Assembly: GCF_003751225.1 (NCBI RefSeq)
Contig: NZ_RJKE01000001.1
Coordinates: 1,116,001 to 1,180,000 of the forward strand
Direction: 5' to 3'
Length of the DNA stretch: 64,000 bases
Source: Actinocorallia herbida
Lineage (GTDB): Bacteria > Actinomycetota > Actinomycetes > Streptosporangiales > Streptosporangiaceae
The notes under the pieces were generated by a model. That model worked only from the letters and a program-made list of their open reading frames with translations, did not search any database and was not told the origin of the DNA. The position numbers and the translations under genes are program-made. Each line of letters starts with the position of its first letter. Within the stretch, counting starts at the first letter, position 1. Positions 2,821 to 9,531 of this stretch are shown piece by piece.

Positions 2821-3942
2821 TCAGTCGCCGGGCTTGGGGGCCGAGGCGGTGCGGGTGCGGCGGGCGGCCGGGGCGGCGGGGGCCTCGGCCGGCGCCGGGA
2901 CGGCCGGGGCGGCGGCGCCTTCGGCGGCGGCCGGGGCGTCGACCCGCGGACCCACGCCGAGCTTCTCCTTGATCTTCTTCTCGATCTCGTCGGAGGTCTC
3001 GGGGTGGGCCTTGAGGTAGTTGCGGGCGTTCTCCTTGCCCTGGCCGAGCTGATCGCCCTCGTAGGTGTACCAGGCGCCGGACTTGCGGACGAAGCCGTGC
3101 TCGACGCCGAGGTCGATGAGGCCGCCCTCGCGGCTGATGCCGTGGCCGTACAGCAGGTCGAAGTCGGCGACCTTGAACGGCGGGGCCACCTTGTTCTTGA
3201 CGACCTTCACGCGCACCCGGTTGCCGACGGCCTCGGTGCCGTCCTTGAGGGTCTCGATGCGGCGCACGTCGAGCCGGACCGAGGCGTAGAACTTCAGCGC
3301 CCGGCCGCCGGAGGTGGTCTCCGGGGAGCCGAACATGACGCCGACCTTCTCGCGCAGCTGGTTGATGAAGATCGCGGTGGTCTTCGTCTGGTTGATGGCG
3401 CCGGTGAGCTTGCGCAGCGCCTGCGACATCAGCCGGGCCTGGAGGCCGACGTGGCTGTCGCCCATGTCGCCCTCGATCTCGGCGCGGGGCACCAGGGCGG
3501 CGACGGAGTCGATGACGACCAGCTCGACCGCGCCGGAGCGGATCAGCATGTCGACGATCTCCAGCGCCTGCTCGCCGGTGTCGGGCTGGGAGACCAGCAG
3601 GGACTTGGTGTCCACACCGAGCTTCTCGGCGTAGTCGGGGTCCAGGGCGTGCTCGGCGTCGACGAAGGCGGCGATGCCGCCGGCCCTCTGCACGCTGGCG
3701 ACGGCGTGCAGGGCGACGGTGGTCTTACCGGAGGACTCCGGCCCGTAGATCTCCACGACGCGGCCGCGCGGCAGGCCGCCGATGCCCAGCGCGATGTCCA
3801 GCGAGATCGACCCGGTGGGGATGATCTCCATGGGGGCGCGCACCTCGTCGCCGAGACGCATGATCGAGCCCTTGCCGAACTGCCGTTCGATCTGGGCGAG
3901 CGCTGTCTCCAGCGCCTTTTCGCGGTCGTTGCCTACTGCCAT
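2821..3942 (-). CDS. recA: Recombinase RecA
   Basis: This is a 373-residue RecA: the DNA-dependent ATPase that forms filaments on single-stranded DNA, drives homologous recombination and activates LexA self-cleavage. The N-terminus [17 protein letters not shown] is canonical and the Walker A GPESSGKT lies at residues 67-74. The core is followed by an Ala/Pro-rich tail ending in SAPKPGD. The ATG at 3942 is chosen because it gives the family N-terminus. An in-frame ATG at 3978 (MTKKQPTRQ) lies only about 4 nt from the predicted transcription start. Upstream are a PafBC-type promoter (3989-4011), a LexA box (4041-4056) and a DnaA box (4072-4080). DNA-damage induction by two routes is therefore likely. 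Confidence 0.98.
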
Positions 3943-3988
3943 CGTGTGCCCCTGTCGGGTCGGTTGCTTCTTCGTCATGTCAGGACCG

Positions 3989-4011
3989 ACGCTACGAGAG
4001 CCCACTGACAG
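3989..4011 (-). promoter_or_regulatory. RecA-NDp (PafBC-type) promoter of recA
   Basis: On the minus strand CTGTCAGTG (4011-4003) is followed by exactly 8 nt and TAGCGT (3994-3989). This matches the LexA-independent DNA-damage promoter of mycobacteria, usually written TTGTCRGTG-N8-TAgnnT, with one mismatch at the first base. It lies 47 nt upstream of the recA start. Confidence 0.75.
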
Positions 4012-4040
4012 AATCGGGGACCCCGTGCGCCGCAACTGTA

Positions 4041-4056
4041 CCGAACATAAATTCGA
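4041..4056. promoter_or_regulatory. LexA (SOS) box upstream of recA
   Basis: The sequence CCGAACATAAATTCGA fits the actinobacterial/Bacillus SOS box CGAAC-N4-GTTCG with a single mismatch (ATTCG in the second arm). It sits about 30 bp upstream of the PafBC-type promoter, where it could serve a second, LexA-repressed promoter. Confidence 0.7.
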
Positions 4057-4071
4057 TCAGCGCGCATAGCC

Positions 4072-4080
4072 TGTGGATAA
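4072..4080 (-). promoter_or_regulatory. Perfect DnaA box near the recA promoter
   Basis: TGTGGATAA here is the reverse complement of TTATCCACA, the consensus DnaA box. Such an AT-rich 9-mer is rare in DNA of this composition. The same word occurs once more, at 33866-33874. A regulatory role of DnaA at recA is inference. Confidence 0.4.
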
Positions 4081-4200
4081 CTCCGGGAAACCCGCGGGGC
4101 GGCCGGTCCTGGCGAGCCGTTAGCGGCTAATCCGGCTGCGCGCGGGGCGCGTCGCGACGTACGCTGGCGGCGCAGCAGACGATCACTCATGGGGCCCACA

Positions 4201-5064
4201 ATGACCCTGACCATCCTCTTCTGCGCCGATCCGCTCCGGCCGCGGCGCGTTGACGAGCACTTCCACCACGAAGCCGAGACCCTCCGTGCCTCCGGCGGCG
4301 CTCCGGTGCTCCTCGATCTGGAGGCGCTGCGCCGCGGCGAGGTCACCGAGGCGGTCCGCAGGGTGCCGCGCGGCATCGGGGCGCTGTGGTACCGCGGCTG
4401 GATGCTGACCGCGGCCGAGTACCACGCGCTGGCCAAGGCGCTGGCTGCGCGCGGCGCGCCGCTGATGACCCCTCCCGACGGCTACCAGCGCGCGCACGAG
4501 CTGCCCGGCTGGTACGCCACGTTCGCGGGGCTGACCCCGGCGAGCGTGTGGCTTCCGCTCCTGCCGCGCGAGACGCCCGCGCGGGCCCCGCTCGCCGCGG
4601 CGGCCGGACGGCTGCCGCAGGGACCCCTGGTGGTCAAGGACTACGTGAAGTCGCGCAAGCACGAGTGGGCCGAGGCGTGCTTCGTGCCCGACTCCGCCGA
4701 CACCGACGCGCTGGTCCGCGTCGTGCACCGGATGGTGGAGCTCCAGGACGACTCCCTGAGCGGCGGTGTCGTCCTGCGCGCCTACGAGGACTACGCGACG
4801 GGCGAAGCGCGGGTGTGGTGGGTGGACGGCGACCCGGTGCTGGTCGGGCCGCATCCCGACAGCCCCGGCGCCGACGCCTTCCCCGACCTCGACCTGGTGC
4901 GGCCCGCCGTGCGCGCGCTGGGCTGCCGGTTCGTCACGACCGACCTCGCGCGCCGGGCCGACGGCGTCTGGCGGGTCGTGGAGGTCGGCGACGGCCAGGT
5001 GAGCGGCCTGCACCGGGGCGCCGATGTGGGCGATCTGTACTTCCACCTGCCCGATCCCGGGTGA
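4201..5064 (+). CDS. ATP-grasp protein of the R2K clade (DUF4343-like)
   Basis: This 287-residue protein starts MTLTILFCADPL; an in-frame ATG at 4189 is an alternative start. The C-terminal half carries the ATP-grasp pattern: LVVKDYVKSRKHEW (nucleotide-binding lysines), RVWWVDGDPVLVGPH, and the metal/ATP-binding end VVEVGDGQVSGL. This resembles DUF4343 proteins of the R2K ATP-grasp clade. That clade is predicted to ligate amino acids or peptides to an unknown carboxylate, perhaps on a protein. It is the first gene of a plus-strand group with a small lipoprotein, a second unrelated ATP-grasp enzyme and DUF350. The substrate is unknown. Family assignment is by motif memory, not by a search. Confidence 0.75.
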   Translation: MTLTILFCADPLRPRRVDEHFHHEAETLRASGGAPVLLDLEALRRGEVTEAVRRVPRGIGALWYRGWMLTAAEYHALAKALAARGAPLMTPPDGYQRAHELPGWYATFAGLTPASVWLPLLPRETPARAPLAAAAGRLPQGPLVVKDYVKSRKHEWAEACFVPDSADTDALVRVVHRMVELQDDSLSGGVVLRAYEDYATGEARVWWVDGDPVLVGPHPDSPGADAFPDLDLVRPAVRALGCRFVTTDLARRADGVWRVVEVGDGQVSGLHRGADVGDLYFHLPDPG

Positions 5065-5120
5065 ATCACGCGAAATCCGACACCCGCCCGAGTGGGGCAG
5101 GCGTGACCTTCCTCGGGAAA

Positions 5121-5160
5121 CCGAATGTTCGCCCATCGCGTCCTAACACCGAACATACGG
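5121..5160. promoter_or_regulatory. Inverted repeat upstream of the small lipoprotein gene
   Basis: CCGAATGTTCG (5121-5131) and CGAACATACGG (5150-5160) are reverse complements with one mismatch, separated by 18 nt. The pair lies about 50 bp upstream of the lipoprotein start. It may be an operator with two half sites or a hairpin. The CGAACATA core resembles the left arm of the recA LexA box but is not a full SOS box. Confidence 0.35.
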
Positions 5161-5209
5161 AAGCCCCTAGACTTCCCCAGCACCGCATTTTCATGGAGGG
5201 ACCCCCCAC

Positions 5210-5536
5210 ATGCCGCAGCGCCGCATGAGCTCCCGGGCCGTCAAGGTCGGTCTACTCGGCACCCTGTCGATGTCGCTGACCGCCTGCGGCGGCTCGCACA
5301 CCGCCACCTGTGTCGAGAACAGGCTGCTCCCGGGAGGGGGCTACCGGGCGGTGAGCGACTCCTACTGCTCCGGCTCCTCGTCGTCGAACTACCGCTGGTA
5401 CTACGGGGGCAACTCCTCCTCCAGCGGCATCATCACGGGCGGCAGCTCGCTCAAGCCCAAGAAGGGCAGCATCAAGACCAAGGGCGGCACTACGCTTCGG
5501 GGCGGCTTCGGCTGGTCCGGCGGCGGCGGAAGCTGA
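5210..5536 (+). CDS. Small Ser/Gly/Lys-rich lipoprotein, YgiB/YjfM (DUF1190)-like
   Basis: This 108-residue precursor has a positively charged start, a hydrophobic stretch and the lipobox LTAC near residue 26, so the mature lipoprotein has about 82 residues. The mature part has two cysteines and a Tyr/Ser-rich segment (NYRWYYGGN). It ends in KPKKGSIKTKGG followed by TTLRGGFG and a Gly-rich tail. The RGGFG element recalls the C-terminus of E. coli YgiB/YjfM, whose genes also neighbour a glutathionylspermidine-synthase-like ATP-grasp gene. The next gene begins 3 nt after this stop codon, so the two are probably translated together. It may be the substrate modified by the neighbouring ligases; that is inference. 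A GGAGG lies upstream of the ATG. Confidence 0.7.
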   Translation: MPQRRMSSRAVKVGLLGTLSMSLTACGGSHTATCVENRLLPGGGYRAVSDSYCSGSSSSNYRWYYGGNSSSSGIITGGSSLKPKKGSIKTKGGTTLRGGFGWSGGGGS

Positions 5537-5539
5537 CCG

Positions 5540-6676
5540 TTGCGCAGAGAGCGCTCCCGGCCGCGTGAAGGCTGGGCCGAGACCATCGAATCCCAGGGGC
5601 TCTCCTACCACCGCACCGCGCATCCCGAGAACCTCACCCGGCCGTACTGGGACGAGTCCGTCCACTACGTGCTGGAGATGGGCGAAGTGCTCTCCTTGGA
5701 GGAGGACGTCGAGACCCTCCACCGGATGTGCCTGGAGGCCGCCGAGCACGTCGTGAAGACGGGCCGGTACGAGCTGCTGGGGATCGACGAGAGGTTCGCG
5801 CCGGCCATCGAGGCGTCCTGGCGGCGCGGAGACCCGCACCTGTACGGCAGGTTCGACCTGCGCCATGACGGCACGGGCCCGGCCAAGCTCCTGGAGTACA
5901 ACGCCGACACCCCCACCTCCCTGGTGGAGTCCTCGATCATCCAGTGGTTCTGGAAGGAGGACGTCTTCCCCGCCGACGACCAGTGGAACTCCCTGCACGA
6001 GCGCCTGATCGACCGCTGGCGGGAGATGCCCCTGCGGTCCGGTCCCGTGCACTTCGCGTGGACGGAGCTGGACGAGTCGGGCGAGGAGCTGATGACCATC
6101 GCCTACCTCCAGGAGACCGCCGCGCAGGCGGGCCGCCAAGGCGTCCCGCTGGCCATGCAGGACATCGGCTGGGACGGCGAGTACTACCGCGACCTGGCCG
6201 ACGCGGAGATCAGGACCTTCTGCAAGCTCTACCCGTGGGAGTGGATCGTCGCTGAGCCGTTCGGCGCGCACGTCGACGAGGCCGACTGGGTCGAGCCGAT
6301 GTGGAAGATGCTCCTGTCCAACAAGGGGATCCTCGCCCTGCTCTGGGAGCTGTTCCCCGGCCACCCCAATCTGCTGCCCGCCTACCTGGACGGCCCCCGC
6401 GACCTCGCTTCGCACATCCGCAAGCCGCTCCTGGGACGGGAGGGCGCCAGCATGACCGTGACGTCGCCCTCCTATCGGACGGAGACGGGCGGGAGCTACG
6501 GCGCGGAAGGGTTCGTCTTCCAGGAGTTCGTCCCGCTCCCCGACTTCGACGGGCAGCACCCCGTCCTGGGCGCGTGGATGGTCGCCGACGAGGCGGCGGG
6601 CCTGGGCATCCGGGAGACCTCCGGGCTCATCACCGACGACACCTCGTCCTTCATCCCGCACCGCATCCCTCTGTGA
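5540..6676 (+). CDS. Glutathionylspermidine synthase-like ATP-grasp ligase (YgiC/YjfC type)
   Basis: This 378-residue protein corresponds to the synthetase half of GspS only; there is no N-terminal amidase domain. ATP-grasp features include FDLRHDG, the acidic LLEYNADTPTSLVE element, the lysine-containing LLSNKG, PLLGREGAS, and FVFQEFVPLPDF. Stand-alone proteins of this type (YgiC, YjfC) are thought to form amide bonds on an unknown substrate; glutathionylspermidine itself is not expected in actinobacteria. The start is TTG at 5540, 3 nt after the stop of the lipoprotein gene. The lipoprotein and ligase are therefore tightly coupled, as in the ygiB-ygiC pair. A DUF350 gene follows 63 nt later. 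Confidence 0.88.
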   Translation: MRRERSRPREGWAETIESQGLSYHRTAHPENLTRPYWDESVHYVLEMGEVLSLEEDVETLHRMCLEAAEHVVKTGRYELLGIDERFAPAIEASWRRGDPHLYGRFDLRHDGTGPAKLLEYNADTPTSLVESSIIQWFWKEDVFPADDQWNSLHERLIDRWREMPLRSGPVHFAWTELDESGEELMTIAYLQETAAQAGRQGVPLAMQDIGWDGEYYRDLADAEIRTFCKLYPWEWIVAEPFGAHVDEADWVEPMWKMLLSNKGILALLWELFPGHPNLLPAYLDGPRDLASHIRKPLLGREGASMTVTSPSYRTETGGSYGAEGFVFQEFVPLPDFDGQHPVLGAWMVADEAAGLGIRETSGLITDDTSSFIPHRIPL

Positions 6677-6739
6677 CCCCGCTCGCACGCCTTCCCTAGC
6701 CCCCCGTAGAACCCCGCATCCCCGTAAGGAACCCACACC

Positions 6740-7183
6740 ATGTCCCTCGACAGCGCCTTCGCCGAGATCCTGGGCGAGAACGTCCTGGCGATCCTCGCCT
6801 ACGCCGCCCTGGGCCTCGTCCTGTTCGTGGTCGGCTTCTACGTCGTCGACCTCGCGACCCCCGGCCGGCTCGTCTCGGTCATCCGCCACGACCGCAACCC
6901 CAATGCGACGCTGCTGGCCGCGGCGGGCATGGTGGCGGTCGGCGTCATCGTGTCGGCGTCGATCTTCGCCACCGACGCGGTGCTGCTGGAGGGCCTGATC
7001 GCGACCGCCGTCTACGGCATCGTCGGGATCATCGGCCAGGTAGTCGCGATGCTCGTCTTCGACCTGCTCATCGGGTTGAAGATCAAGGAGCTGTGCCACG
7101 AGACCACCCTCCAGCCGGGCACCTGGCTGCTGGCGGTCACCCACGTGATGATCGGCCTGGTCACCGCGCTCGCGGTGATCTGA
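6740..7183 (+). CDS. DUF350 family membrane protein (YjfL-like)
   Basis: This 147-residue protein has four predicted membrane segments (about residues 15-35, 50-75, 80-105 and 120-145), typical of DUF350/UPF0719. A segment containing ALGLVLFVVGFYVVDL begins the domain. DUF350 genes recur beside GspS-like ATP-grasp genes and YgiB/YjfM lipoproteins, as in the E. coli yjf region, which supports one functional unit here. Its activity is unknown. GTAAGGAA precedes the ATG. A DUF3046 gene converges on it 39 bp downstream. Confidence 0.85.
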   Translation: MSLDSAFAEILGENVLAILAYAALGLVLFVVGFYVVDLATPGRLVSVIRHDRNPNATLLAAAGMVAVGVIVSASIFATDAVLLEGLIATAVYGIVGIIGQVVAMLVFDLLIGLKIKELCHETTLQPGTWLLAVTHVMIGLVTALAVI

Positions 7184-7222
7184 CCCGGTTCGCCCCCACC
7201 CGAGCCGCGACGGACGGGCCCG

Positions 7223-7417
7223 CTACCGAAGCCGGTCGGGGACGTCGAAGGCGGCGCAGACGGCCCACCAGACCGTCCGCACGTCGGTGCCTTCGGCGAC
7301 CGCCTGCTGGGCGGTGCGCCCGCCCAGTTCGGCGAGCACATAGTCCTTGGCGACGCTCTGCGCGTACGCCTCGCCGAACTGGCGGTTCATCTTCTCCCAG
7401 AACGCGGTCAGCCTCAC
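7223..7417 (-). CDS. DUF3046 family protein
   Basis: This 64-residue protein starts at GTG (7417): VRLTAFWEKMNRQFG, then DYVLAELGGRT and WWAVCAAFDVP, which is the whole DUF3046 signature. The family is small, cytoplasmic and restricted to actinobacteria, where it is commonly found near recA and recX. Its function is unknown. A longer in-frame extension upstream would run into the big inverted repeat and is not part of the family. Confidence 0.88.
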   Translation of the reverse strand: MRLTAFWEKMNRQFGEAYAQSVAKDYVLAELGGRTAQQAVAEGTDVRTVWWAVCAAFDVPDRLR

Positions 7418-7478
7418 CGGGCCAGTCTGCCAGCCGCTCGGAGTCGCCTGGACCGCGTCCGCCGACGGACCTGGCGGT

Positions 7479-7528
7479 GGACGGTCTTCCGCCCTCCGGT
7501 ACACCTACCGGAGGGCGGAAGACCGTCC
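7479..7528. terminator. Perfect 22-bp inverted repeat with 6-nt loop
   Basis: Positions 7479-7500 and 7507-7528 are exact reverse complements around the loop ACACCT. The element lies 21 bp downstream of the S9 peptidase stop, on the same strand, and upstream of the DUF3046 gene. A transcription terminator for the peptidase gene is the simplest reading. A stem this long and perfect is unusual compared with the other hairpins in the window. Confidence 0.7.
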
Positions 7529-7548
7529 GGGGCCGTCAGGAGCCGGCC

Positions 7549-9531
7549 TCAGGCGGCTTCGCCGTCCGAGAGCTTCAGGACGGGCACGCCGAGCGGCTGG
7601 AAGCCGAGGGTCTGCCCGTAGAAGGAGAGCTCGGCCTCCAGGCAGGTCTGGAGGGTCTCCGCCCGGCGGAAGCCGTGGGACTCGCCGCGGAACGCCAGGT
7701 AGGCGTAGGGAACCTTGTTGTCGCCGAGCGCCCGGGCGAAGGCATCGGACTGGGCGGGCGGCACGACCGGGTCGTCCAGGCCCTGGAGCAGCAGCACCGG
7801 GCAGGACGTGCGGTCCGCGCGGTGCAGCGGGGAGCGCTCCTCGTAGGCCCGCTCGTAGCCGGGGACCGGGCCGATGAGCCCGAAGAGGTAGCGCGACTCG
7901 AAGTCGTGCGTCTCGGCCAGCAGCGTGGTGGCGTCGCTCACGCCGAAGTAGGACGTGGCGGCCTTGAAGACCGAGCCGGAGGTCACCGCCGCCAGGGTCG
8001 TCCACCCGCCGGAGCTGGCGCCCCGGATGGCCAGCCGGTCGGGGTGCGCCCGCCTGGTCCTGACCATCGCGGTCGCGACCGACACCGCGTCCTCCACGTC
8101 CACCACGCCCCACTGGCGGCGCAGCCGCTCGCGGTAGGCCCTGCCGTAGCCGGTGGAGCCGCCGTAGTCGACCTCGATGACGCCGATGCCGCGGCTGGTG
8201 AAGTAGGCGCGCTCCAGATTGAGCGTCCCCGACGAACGCGCGGTGGGGCCGCCGTGCACCCACACCACGTAAGGCGGCAGCTCGCCCTGGGGCCCGATCG
8301 AGTCGGGGCTGGCGGGCTCGTACACGAGCGCGTGGACGGGCCTGCCGAACTGGCCCTCGAAGATCTCGTCGCGGGGGACGGGCAGGTAGGACTCCGGCGG
8401 CACCCGGTCCAGCTCGCGGCGCAGCACCGTGGCCCGCCCGTCGGCCGCCGAGATCCGCACGACGGAGGCGGGCTGCGACGGGGAGGCGCCGATCCCGACG
8501 ATGGTGGAGCCGTCGGCCGACAGGCTCATCTGCCAGTCGGTGTACGGCAGGTCGAGGGACTCCAGCTCCAGCGTCTCGGGGTCGTACAGGCTGAGCCGCT
8601 GGTCTCCTTGGCCGTGCATCACCGCGAGGCGGCCGTCGGCCAGCAGCGCGTAAGGCATGCCGCCCAGGCTCCACAGAGGGCCCGCGAACTCCTCCTCGGC
8701 CGGGTAGAGCGCCTGAGGGGACTCGCCGTACAGGCCCACCTGGTAGATGTTCCACCAGCCCGGCCAGTCCGACACGACGTACAGGCTGGTGTCGTCGCGC
8801 CACAGCGGCGCGAGGACGGACTCGGACATGCCGCCCTTGACCGTCCGCGGAGACACGACCTTGCCCTGGTCGATGACGCCGACGCGCAGCTCCGTCCCGT
8901 CCCACGGCATGCGCGGGTGGTTCCACTGCACCCACGCGAGGTGCCCGCCGGAGGGCGAGGGCGTGGGGGAGGCGTAGAAGTCGCTGCCCGTGACCATCTC
9001 GTTGATCGCGCCGGGGTCGTTGGCCGCGCGCCCGTCCAGCGGGATGCCCACGATCGCCCGCCGTACGCCCGCCGGAGGCACCGGGTCGCCTTCCGCCGCG
9101 GGCGGCGCCGCCACGTGCCCCTCGCACACGCACCAGACCTCGCTGCCGTCCGGGGACAGCACCAGATCGGCGTAGCGCAGCCCTCCGGGGATCGCGGGCT
9201 CGGGCGTCAGGGGACGCGGCCGGGCGTCCCCGGGAGCCAGCAGGTGCAGGCGCTGGTCCTCGTAGTTGGCGAAGACGACCCCGCGAGAGGTCGGCACATA
9301 GGACTTGCCGCCGTACTCGTGGACCCGGGTCCGCGCGTTCCACGGCGGCGGAAGCACCTCGCGTCCGTTGCGCACGACCGTCGTCCGACCGTTCTCCTCC
9401 GGCCTGCTCTCCTGCCACCACACGTCGTCGCCGAGCGCGGTGGGGAAACTCAGCCTGACGCGGGAGCGGGCGACGTCGGCTGCGGAGATCGGAGAGGGCC
9501 AGGATCCGAAGGGGGTCACGCGAGCGGTCAT
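7549..9531 (-). CDS. Prolyl oligopeptidase-family (S9) serine peptidase
   Basis: This 660-residue protein has an N-terminal beta-propeller-like region rich in LSPDG/SADGS turns and a C-terminal alpha/beta-hydrolase domain. The catalytic triad can be read as Ser506 in GASSGGW, Asp587 in GLDDPVVP and His619 in ESHGF. This suits an S9C-type acylaminoacyl or dipeptidyl peptidase that trims oligopeptides. There is no signal peptide, so it is probably cytoplasmic. The start MTARVTPFGSWPSP (9531) follows a GACGAT hexamer ending 6 nt upstream, a possible leaderless promoter. It lies downstream of gluABCD on the same strand, with a 71-nt gap. Confidence 0.88.
   Translation of the reverse strand: MTARVTPFGSWPSPISAADVARSRVRLSFPTALGDDVWWQESRPEENGRTTVVRNGREVLPPPWNARTRVHEYGGKSYVPTSRGVVFANYEDQRLHLLAPGDARPRPLTPEPAIPGGLRYADLVLSPDGSEVWCVCEGHVAAPPAAEGDPVPPAGVRRAIVGIPLDGRAANDPGAINEMVTGSDFYASPTPSPSGGHLAWVQWNHPRMPWDGTELRVGVIDQGKVVSPRTVKGGMSESVLAPLWRDDTSLYVVSDWPGWWNIYQVGLYGESPQALYPAEEEFAGPLWSLGGMPYALLADGRLAVMHGQGDQRLSLYDPETLELESLDLPYTDWQMSLSADGSTIVGIGASPSQPASVVRISAADGRATVLRRELDRVPPESYLPVPRDEIFEGQFGRPVHALVYEPASPDSIGPQGELPPYVVWVHGGPTARSSGTLNLERAYFTSRGIGVIEVDYGGSTGYGRAYRERLRRQWGVVDVEDAVSVATAMVRTRRAHPDRLAIRGASSGGWTTLAAVTSGSVFKAATSYFGVSDATTLLAETHDFESRYLFGLIGPVPGYERAYEERSPLHRADRTSCPVLLLQGLDDPVVPPAQSDAFARALGDNKVPYAYLAFRGESHGFRRAETLQTCLEAELSFYGQTLGFQPLGVPVLKLSDGEAA

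Follow-up and report, generated by a model that had tools for sequence, protein, structure and literature searches.

The closest described relatives of the locus reported here are the YgiB-YgiC and YjfM-YjfC(-YjfL) sets of Escherichia coli, in which a small lipoprotein stands beside a GspS-like ATP-grasp ligase. RefSeq names both YgiC and YjfC peptide--spermidine ligase, an activity attributed to them by Pederick 2023 (as cited in the accessible part of PMC12568646). The neighborhood of ligase, DUF350 protein and DUF1190 lipoprotein is described in the accessible part of PMC11237479, together with two operon types: PspA/CesT-linked polyamine operons, which bring a GspS-related ATP-grasp ligase, DUF350 and an envelope protein together, and a second type that combines a spermidine-synthase domain with DUF350. 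The ligase activity and both operon types are, to that extent, already known. Here we describe a three-gene module, encoding a small membrane-anchored protein, a GspS-like ligase and a DUF350 membrane protein, in a 64,000-nucleotide stretch (the window) of the Actinocorallia herbida genome (9.8 Mb, one contig), and propose that the ligase may modify the C-terminal tail of its small neighbor.

Several features are common to the window's locus and the E. coli systems. The ligases are 40–41% identical over the alignment, DUF350 is present in the yjf operon as well, and YgiB and YjfM are likewise encoded directly upstream of the ligase and carry an (S/T)RGG[F/Y]G motif and a GG end. In contrast, YgiB and YjfM are DUF1190 proteins (PF06693), whereas the window's small protein has no DUF1190 match and shares with them, beyond the anchor, the tail alone. 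Unlike the E. coli-type clusters, the window's trio includes no gene named PspA, DUF2170 or DUF2491; this comparison covers the trio itself. Neither the C-terminal tails nor a possible function of theirs as substrates is mentioned in the accessible part of PMC11237479.

A conserved module of ligase, small protein and DUF350

The 378-amino-acid ligase matches PF03738 over the whole model (positions 1–371 of 371) and has no amidase part. Its best sequence matches in the PDB are 7uk6 (YjfC, E = 3e-81) and 7uk8 (YgiC, E = 4e-81), with trypanothione synthetase weaker at E = 6e-39. Its best matches from named organisms, among those listed, are from Actinocorallia (84% and 82%). We aligned the active sites of 15 enzymes, comprising E. 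coli Gss (glutathionylspermidine synthetase/amidase), YgiC, YjfC and 12 actinobacterial ligases. Nine Gss positions that we take to be catalytic (R316, D318, E330, N332, E391, K498, K533, R538 and R598) are identical in 15/15, the position of E392 is Glu or Asp throughout, and those of S335 and S337 are Thr in every ligase except Gss. The window's enzyme shares with Gss the ATP-grasp fold family and an intact set of catalytic residues, and differs from it in the missing amidase domain and in several substitutions at the sites for peptide and amine.

Among 121 genomes of the order, PF03738 was found at 65 ligase places in 62 genomes. We examined 60 of these places, leaving out the window and four others, and added the best 80 ligase matches from named actinobacteria, some strains of which are also among the 60 order loci. 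A profile of the small protein (A3), built from ligase-adjacent proteins, detects it in the identical 62 genomes, and neither partner occurs alone (naive Fisher p = 5e-36, kinship ignored). The small protein immediately precedes the ligase in 60/60 order loci and 80/80 named loci, an adjacency that exceeds chance. DUF350 follows directly downstream in 47/60 and 62/80. Considered genome-wide, DUF350 is present in 62/62 genomes with the ligase and in 49/59 without it; in the former, it adjoins the ligase in 49, occurs only in the synthase locus described below in 12, and falls at a contig edge in one (G077). At two loci (L069 and L136), a tandem pair of tailed small proteins precedes a single ligase.

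A preliminary description of this DNA had placed four open reading frames (ORFs) on one strand, with the ligase starting 3 nt after the small-protein stop. All four are present at the coordinates given, and the spacing is exact (stop 5534–5536, TTG start 5540). That description had also tied its idea of a lipoprotein-modification system to intact ligase residues and to a conserved neighborhood in relatives. The alignment bears out the former, and the genome survey the latter for ligase, small exported protein and DUF350. It also described the enterobacterial trio as being of unknown chemistry, a remark now outdated given the RefSeq naming and the peptide-spermidine ligase activity cited above.

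The C-terminal tail and its proposed modification

The window's small protein carries an LTAC lipobox, a feature also found in its genus. In several lineages of alignment A4, inspected by eye, the lipobox Cys is absent and replaced by a plain membrane anchor, and no Lys is invariant in alignments A1, A3 or A4. Neither Pfam nor NCBIfam gives a match to the protein at E ≤ 1. An AlphaFold model (39 sequences, mean pLDDT 66.8, pTM 0.53) shows a folded core at residues 30–90 and a tail (residues 101–108) with pLDDT below 50; a fold search of the PDB gave no match to the protein at E ≤ 0.001. Low model confidence is not proof of disorder, but the tail is predicted to be disordered, and an exposed, flexible C terminus fits a substrate. 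Body homology to DUF1190 (hhalign probability 94.6) and to the small proteins of the sister operon described below (93.7) was considered and not accepted, the alignments covering just 36 and 41 N-terminal anchor columns, respectively.

In synthetic-peptide form, the tail of the window's protein is RGGFGWSGGGGS. We compared 143 small proteins from the 60 order loci, the 80 named loci and the window, 105 of them remaining after redundancy removal. Position −2 is Gly in all but one, which has Ser (Gly in 142/143, and in 104/105 of the non-redundant set), and position −1 is Ser in 96, Gly in 46 and Thr in one, and never Lys (non-redundant: 73, 31 and 1). As a background, Ser and Gly each form the last residue in 17% of the 343 genes called across the named loci. 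The stretch that follows RGGxG is 7 to 23 residues long, with an interior that is 44% Gly (372/848); because the G-[S/G] end is kept while its distance from RGGxG varies, we count it as fixed. RGGxG itself is missing in 1/105 proteins (L093, which has VGGFG). Six loci (L045, L072, L078, L082, L086 and L091) have RGGAG, RGGVG or RGGMG in place of RGGFG, and none of them has DUF350 adjoining the ligase; other DUF350-less loci still have RGGFG.

The end is also found away from the ligase and outside the order. Three paralogs with no ligase in the 4.5 kb examined (L230, L231 and L232) end in RGGFG...GS, RGGFG...GG and RSGFG...GG; their genomes carry a ligase elsewhere. In a sample of 12 proteins from outside the order, consisting of YgiB, YjfM and the neighbors of ten ligases on plasmid records chosen from 160 (with the small-protein ORF of L211, L212 and L219 picked by eye), 11/12 end in G[G/S] and 10/12 hold RGG[F/Y/L]G, relatedness of their bodies to the window protein not being established. 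Gene order is reversed in Rhodobacter (L217) and Paraburkholderia (L211): there the ligase comes first, and the small protein that follows it still has a GG end. Two observations concern the family more widely: four distant relatives (L233–L236) may represent a tail-less branch, and a tailed small protein of Pseudarthrobacter (L210:3001-3498) is annotated as tRNA-dihydrouridine synthase, a name that is probably wrong.

These data change what can be said of the small protein as a substrate. The preliminary description had named Cys, Lys and the RGGFG element as its conserved features. RGGFG stands, as the strongest candidate element; Lys and the lipobox Cys fall away in the alignments, and the candidate acceptor shifts to the free C terminus of G-[S/G].

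The pairing suggests that ligase and small protein form an envelope enzyme-substrate pair. From this pairing, the tail and the activity of E. coli YgiC and YjfC, we infer that the ligase amidates the free C-terminal carboxylate of the tail with an amine, a reading to which we give somewhat better than an even chance. In such a reaction, the ligase would use ATP to activate the carboxylate of RGGFG...G[S/G]-COOH and the activated tail would then be joined to the amine; the models are GspS, which joins the terminal Gly of glutathione to spermidine, and the E. coli peptide-spermidine ligases. RGGFG would serve for recognition, and modification would take place at the final two residues. Since no export signal is evident in the ligase and the protein is anchored with its C terminus outside, modification would have to precede export. 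DUF350 may be the membrane partner of the pair, and the adjoining R2K gene (see below) would have no part in the reaction.

A second DUF350 gene of the same genome lies in a sister operon (L116) that resembles the second operon type in the accessible part of PMC11237479. It adjoins a 584-amino-acid protein with a C-terminal spermidine-synthase domain (residues 350–525) and a DUF4247 protein (E = 3e-12) that ends RGGGPGDGK; a CesT-like gene (PF22551) also lies in this operon. Strong synthase matches (>100 bits) occur in 68/121 genomes. We searched 54 synthase loci with a regular expression that demands RGG near the end and leaves the last residue free; in 54/54 loci (58/58 copies) DUF350 is preceded on its own strand by an ORF that ends RGGG...GK, and ten further matches form no consistent set and look like chance frames. 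The bodies of these proteins vary, some matching DUF4247 and others no family. In six non-actinobacterial plasmid records, where Lys ends were sought by eye or by a Lys-end scan and the evidence is weak, a Lys-ended protein lies by DUF350 or in the cluster in five (Ensifer, Novosphingobium, Tritonibacter, Alteromonas and Gemmatirosa), and the same inspection of the Burkholderia stagnalis record gave no convincing one.

The last residue predicts the enzyme: G or S goes with the ligase (142/143), K with the synthase. For the most part the two modules occur as alternatives: a synthase match above 100 bits is found in 17/62 genomes with the ligase versus 51/59 without it (kinship uncorrected), and both modules are complete, each with its own DUF350, in five genomes including the window's. 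In a DUF350 tree, the 48 GspS-linked and 54 synthase-linked copies separate with none misplaced, at a split support of 0.32, and the window's copy groups, with weak branch support, among the GspS-linked ones.

Because the sister small proteins end in RGGG...GK, their C-terminal Lys may be the target of the synthase-like enzyme. The Lys side chain shares an aminobutyl group with putrescine, and membrane-fused spermidine synthases reportedly act on something other than putrescine, as Li is said to have found in 2019. A role as Lys aminopropyltransferase is a bolder proposal for the sister enzyme than amidation is for the ligase. AdoMetDC is present in 6/68 genomes with a synthase match, and with so few a simple aminopropyl transfer is disfavored. 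A model in which two unrelated enzymes give DUF350-associated small proteins polyamine-like C termini, the ligase by amidating G-[S/G] and the membrane-fused synthase-like enzyme by alkylating Lys, is accordingly put forward only tentatively, at rather less than an even chance.

Gene layout and the R2K gene

The features of the locus and of the sister operon are collected below.

Coordinates of the module, its flanking genes and the second DUF350 gene (window positions unless a contig label is given)
Feature	Position	Strand	Family match or remark
recA (longest ORF)	2821..4035	-	PF00154, E 8e-142 for 2821-3948; left flank of ancestral recA-R2K-DUF3046 order
R2K_3 ATP-grasp gene	4201..5064	+	PF14243, E 9e-45, 153 bits vs cut-off 26.3
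Small membrane-anchored protein, 108 aa, lipobox LTAC, proposed substrate	5210..5536	+	
RGGFG codons (residues 97-101)	5498..5512	+	R-G-G-x-G invariant in A1, an alignment that includes YgiB and YjfM of E. coli
C-terminal Gly-Ser codons, proposed amidation site (terminal carboxylate)	5528..5533	+	
GspS-like ATP-grasp ligase, YgiC/YjfC type, no amidase domain, TTG start	5540..6676	+	PF03738 GSP_synth, E 1e-142
DUF350 membrane protein, GspS-linked type	6740..7183	+	PF03994, E 1e-22
DUF3046 gene	7223..7504	-	PF11248, E 4e-28; right flank of module
Second DUF350 of the window's genome	G000:C1:343315-343725		Sister operon, locus L116 (G000:C1:337000-350000)

The gene upstream of the small protein is a clear member of the R2K.3 ATP-grasp family, with a score above the Pfam cut-off and an EVGDG sequence corresponding to the ExGD motif given for R2K.3 in the accessible part of PMC4431377. 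It is separated from the small protein by 145 bp, which places it outside the tight operon. A scan of 3900–7600 for sigma-70-type promoters, which is not informative for this organism, found none.

Across the order, R2K_3 exceeds the Pfam cut-off in 28/121 genomes (36/121 at E ≤ 0.001), of which 19 have a GspS-like gene and nine do not (Fisher p = 0.054). R2K lies near the module in 7/60 order loci and 11/80 named loci; in the remaining 53/60 and 69/80, any R2K is far away. Wherever the two meet (the window, the seven and the 11), the trio or pair sits between R2K and DUF3046, beside recA. We also examined 20 R2K loci away from the ligase. Seven (L096, L097 and L099–L103) have the order recX, recA, R2K, DUF3046 without the module, with 13–161 nt between the matched stretches of R2K and DUF3046; the ligase is absent from six of these seven genomes and lies 0.9 Mb away in the other (G096). 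At the other 13, either R2K stands away from recA or the contig does not reach far enough to judge. Two genomes of genus g19 have R2K without the trio, which indicates gain or loss within that genus. Because it stands beside recA with or without the module, R2K is best read as a recA neighbor and a bystander to the module. In several genera of the order, R2K_3 is a conserved neighbor of recA with DUF3046 on its other side, and no mention of a link between this family and recA was found in the accessible part of PMC4431377.

Alternative explanations and implications

Several observations weigh against amidation of the tail. The main weakness is that the ligase looks cytosolic and the proposed substrate is exported. 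Five GspS residues (T441, T446, Q582, T585 and D610) are not kept in the 15-sequence alignment, and the p-values are naive because kinship makes the genomes interdependent. The tail has its exceptions: L233–L236 have lost the Gly tail and end in RR, a Sphingomonas protein ends IHA, and Azospirillum and Rhizobium proteins have SAGFG and RQGFG in place of the RGG motif. The source of an amine is a further difficulty. The window's genome has no match to AdoMetDC (PF02675), in a search that did not extend to class 2 AdoMetDC or uptake, and only 9/62 ligase genomes have one; PF01276 is absent from the window's genome, and its PF02784 matches comprise two lysA-type enzymes and two of unclear type. 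Spermidine as the amine in this organism was considered and, with no AdoMetDC match in the genome, is not supported.

The apparent difference in compartment would suit an explanation in which the ligase's substrate is a small soluble peptide or metabolite, and the tailed protein a sensor, carrier or scaffold whose RGGFG docks DUF350 or another envelope partner. DUF350 partners both operon types that have an RGG tail, and it is present in every ligase-bearing genome (62/62). However, the tail is still kept where DUF350 is not adjacent (13/60 and 18/80 loci), and docking accounts neither for a fixed two-residue end on tails of varying length nor for the split between G/S ends at the ligase and K ends at the synthase; we regard this explanation as unlikely, although it deserves serious weight. 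Modification of side chains instead, at the Asp and Glu carboxylates of the acidic stretch (VVDDDYCDDD) that precedes the tail in many members, is distinctly improbable: that stretch is variable, the window's protein is almost free of acidic residues, and alignments A1, A3 and A4 contain no invariant Asp or Glu. Membership in PF03738 would also allow an enzyme that makes glutathionylspermidine or a thiol analog, for which we see very little chance. The ligase scores 99.8 bits against PRK10507, the NCBIfam model of the fused amidase form, far below the cut-off of 882, the amidase part is missing, and actinobacteria have mycothiol rather than glutathione. The close relatives in E. coli are themselves reported to lack glutathionylspermidine activity (Sui 2012, as cited in the accessible part of PMC12506659).

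In the reading drawn from the preliminary description, R2K and the GspS-like ligase act in turn on the lipoprotein. The four genes do adjoin in the window and in the seven order and 11 named loci, and R2K.2 and R2K.3 genes are linked in other bacteria (accessible part of PMC4431377). Against this, all seven and all 11 loci lie beside recA with DUF3046 on the opposite side, the seven recA-R2K-DUF3046 loci lack the module, and 9/28 R2K genomes lack the ligase. The recA address is independent of the module; we have rejected R2K as a functional partner, and find successive action of the two ligases even less credible than glutathionylspermidine synthesis. The least probable proposal, and one that is largely refuted, is that the G-[S/G] end arises as a side effect of a ligase ribosome-binding site in the last codons. 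Start-stop spacing is below 10 nt in 87/105 cases, and the −2 Gly codon shifts from GGC to GGG, GGA or GGT (GGC in 39/105, versus 767/1039 inside the tail), a shift that also counts against our own explanation of the end. Yet the amino acids are kept in 18/18 cases where spacing is at least 10 nt or no ligase start lies downstream, as they are in the three orphan copies and in the two proteobacterial proteins downstream of the ligase; the ribosome site therefore shapes the codons but does not explain the end.

Against the open-access literature, four elements appear to be new, although Pederick 2023 may hold part of this: the actinobacterial small-protein family as constant partner of the ligase, its fixed G-[S/G] end, the G/S-versus-K rule, and the recA address of R2K. 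No proposal of the tails as substrates was found there (subscription journals fell mostly outside the search), and the open-access texts examined name no natural peptide of YgiC or YjfC. For ligase and synthase alike, the tail rule points to a concrete candidate substrate, down to the candidate atom. If C-terminal amidation is correct, polyamine-type modification of envelope proteins would extend across Actinomycetota and Pseudomonadota, and DUF350 and DUF4247 would gain a context. If the model of two enzymes holds as well, it would define a new class of protein C-terminal modification.

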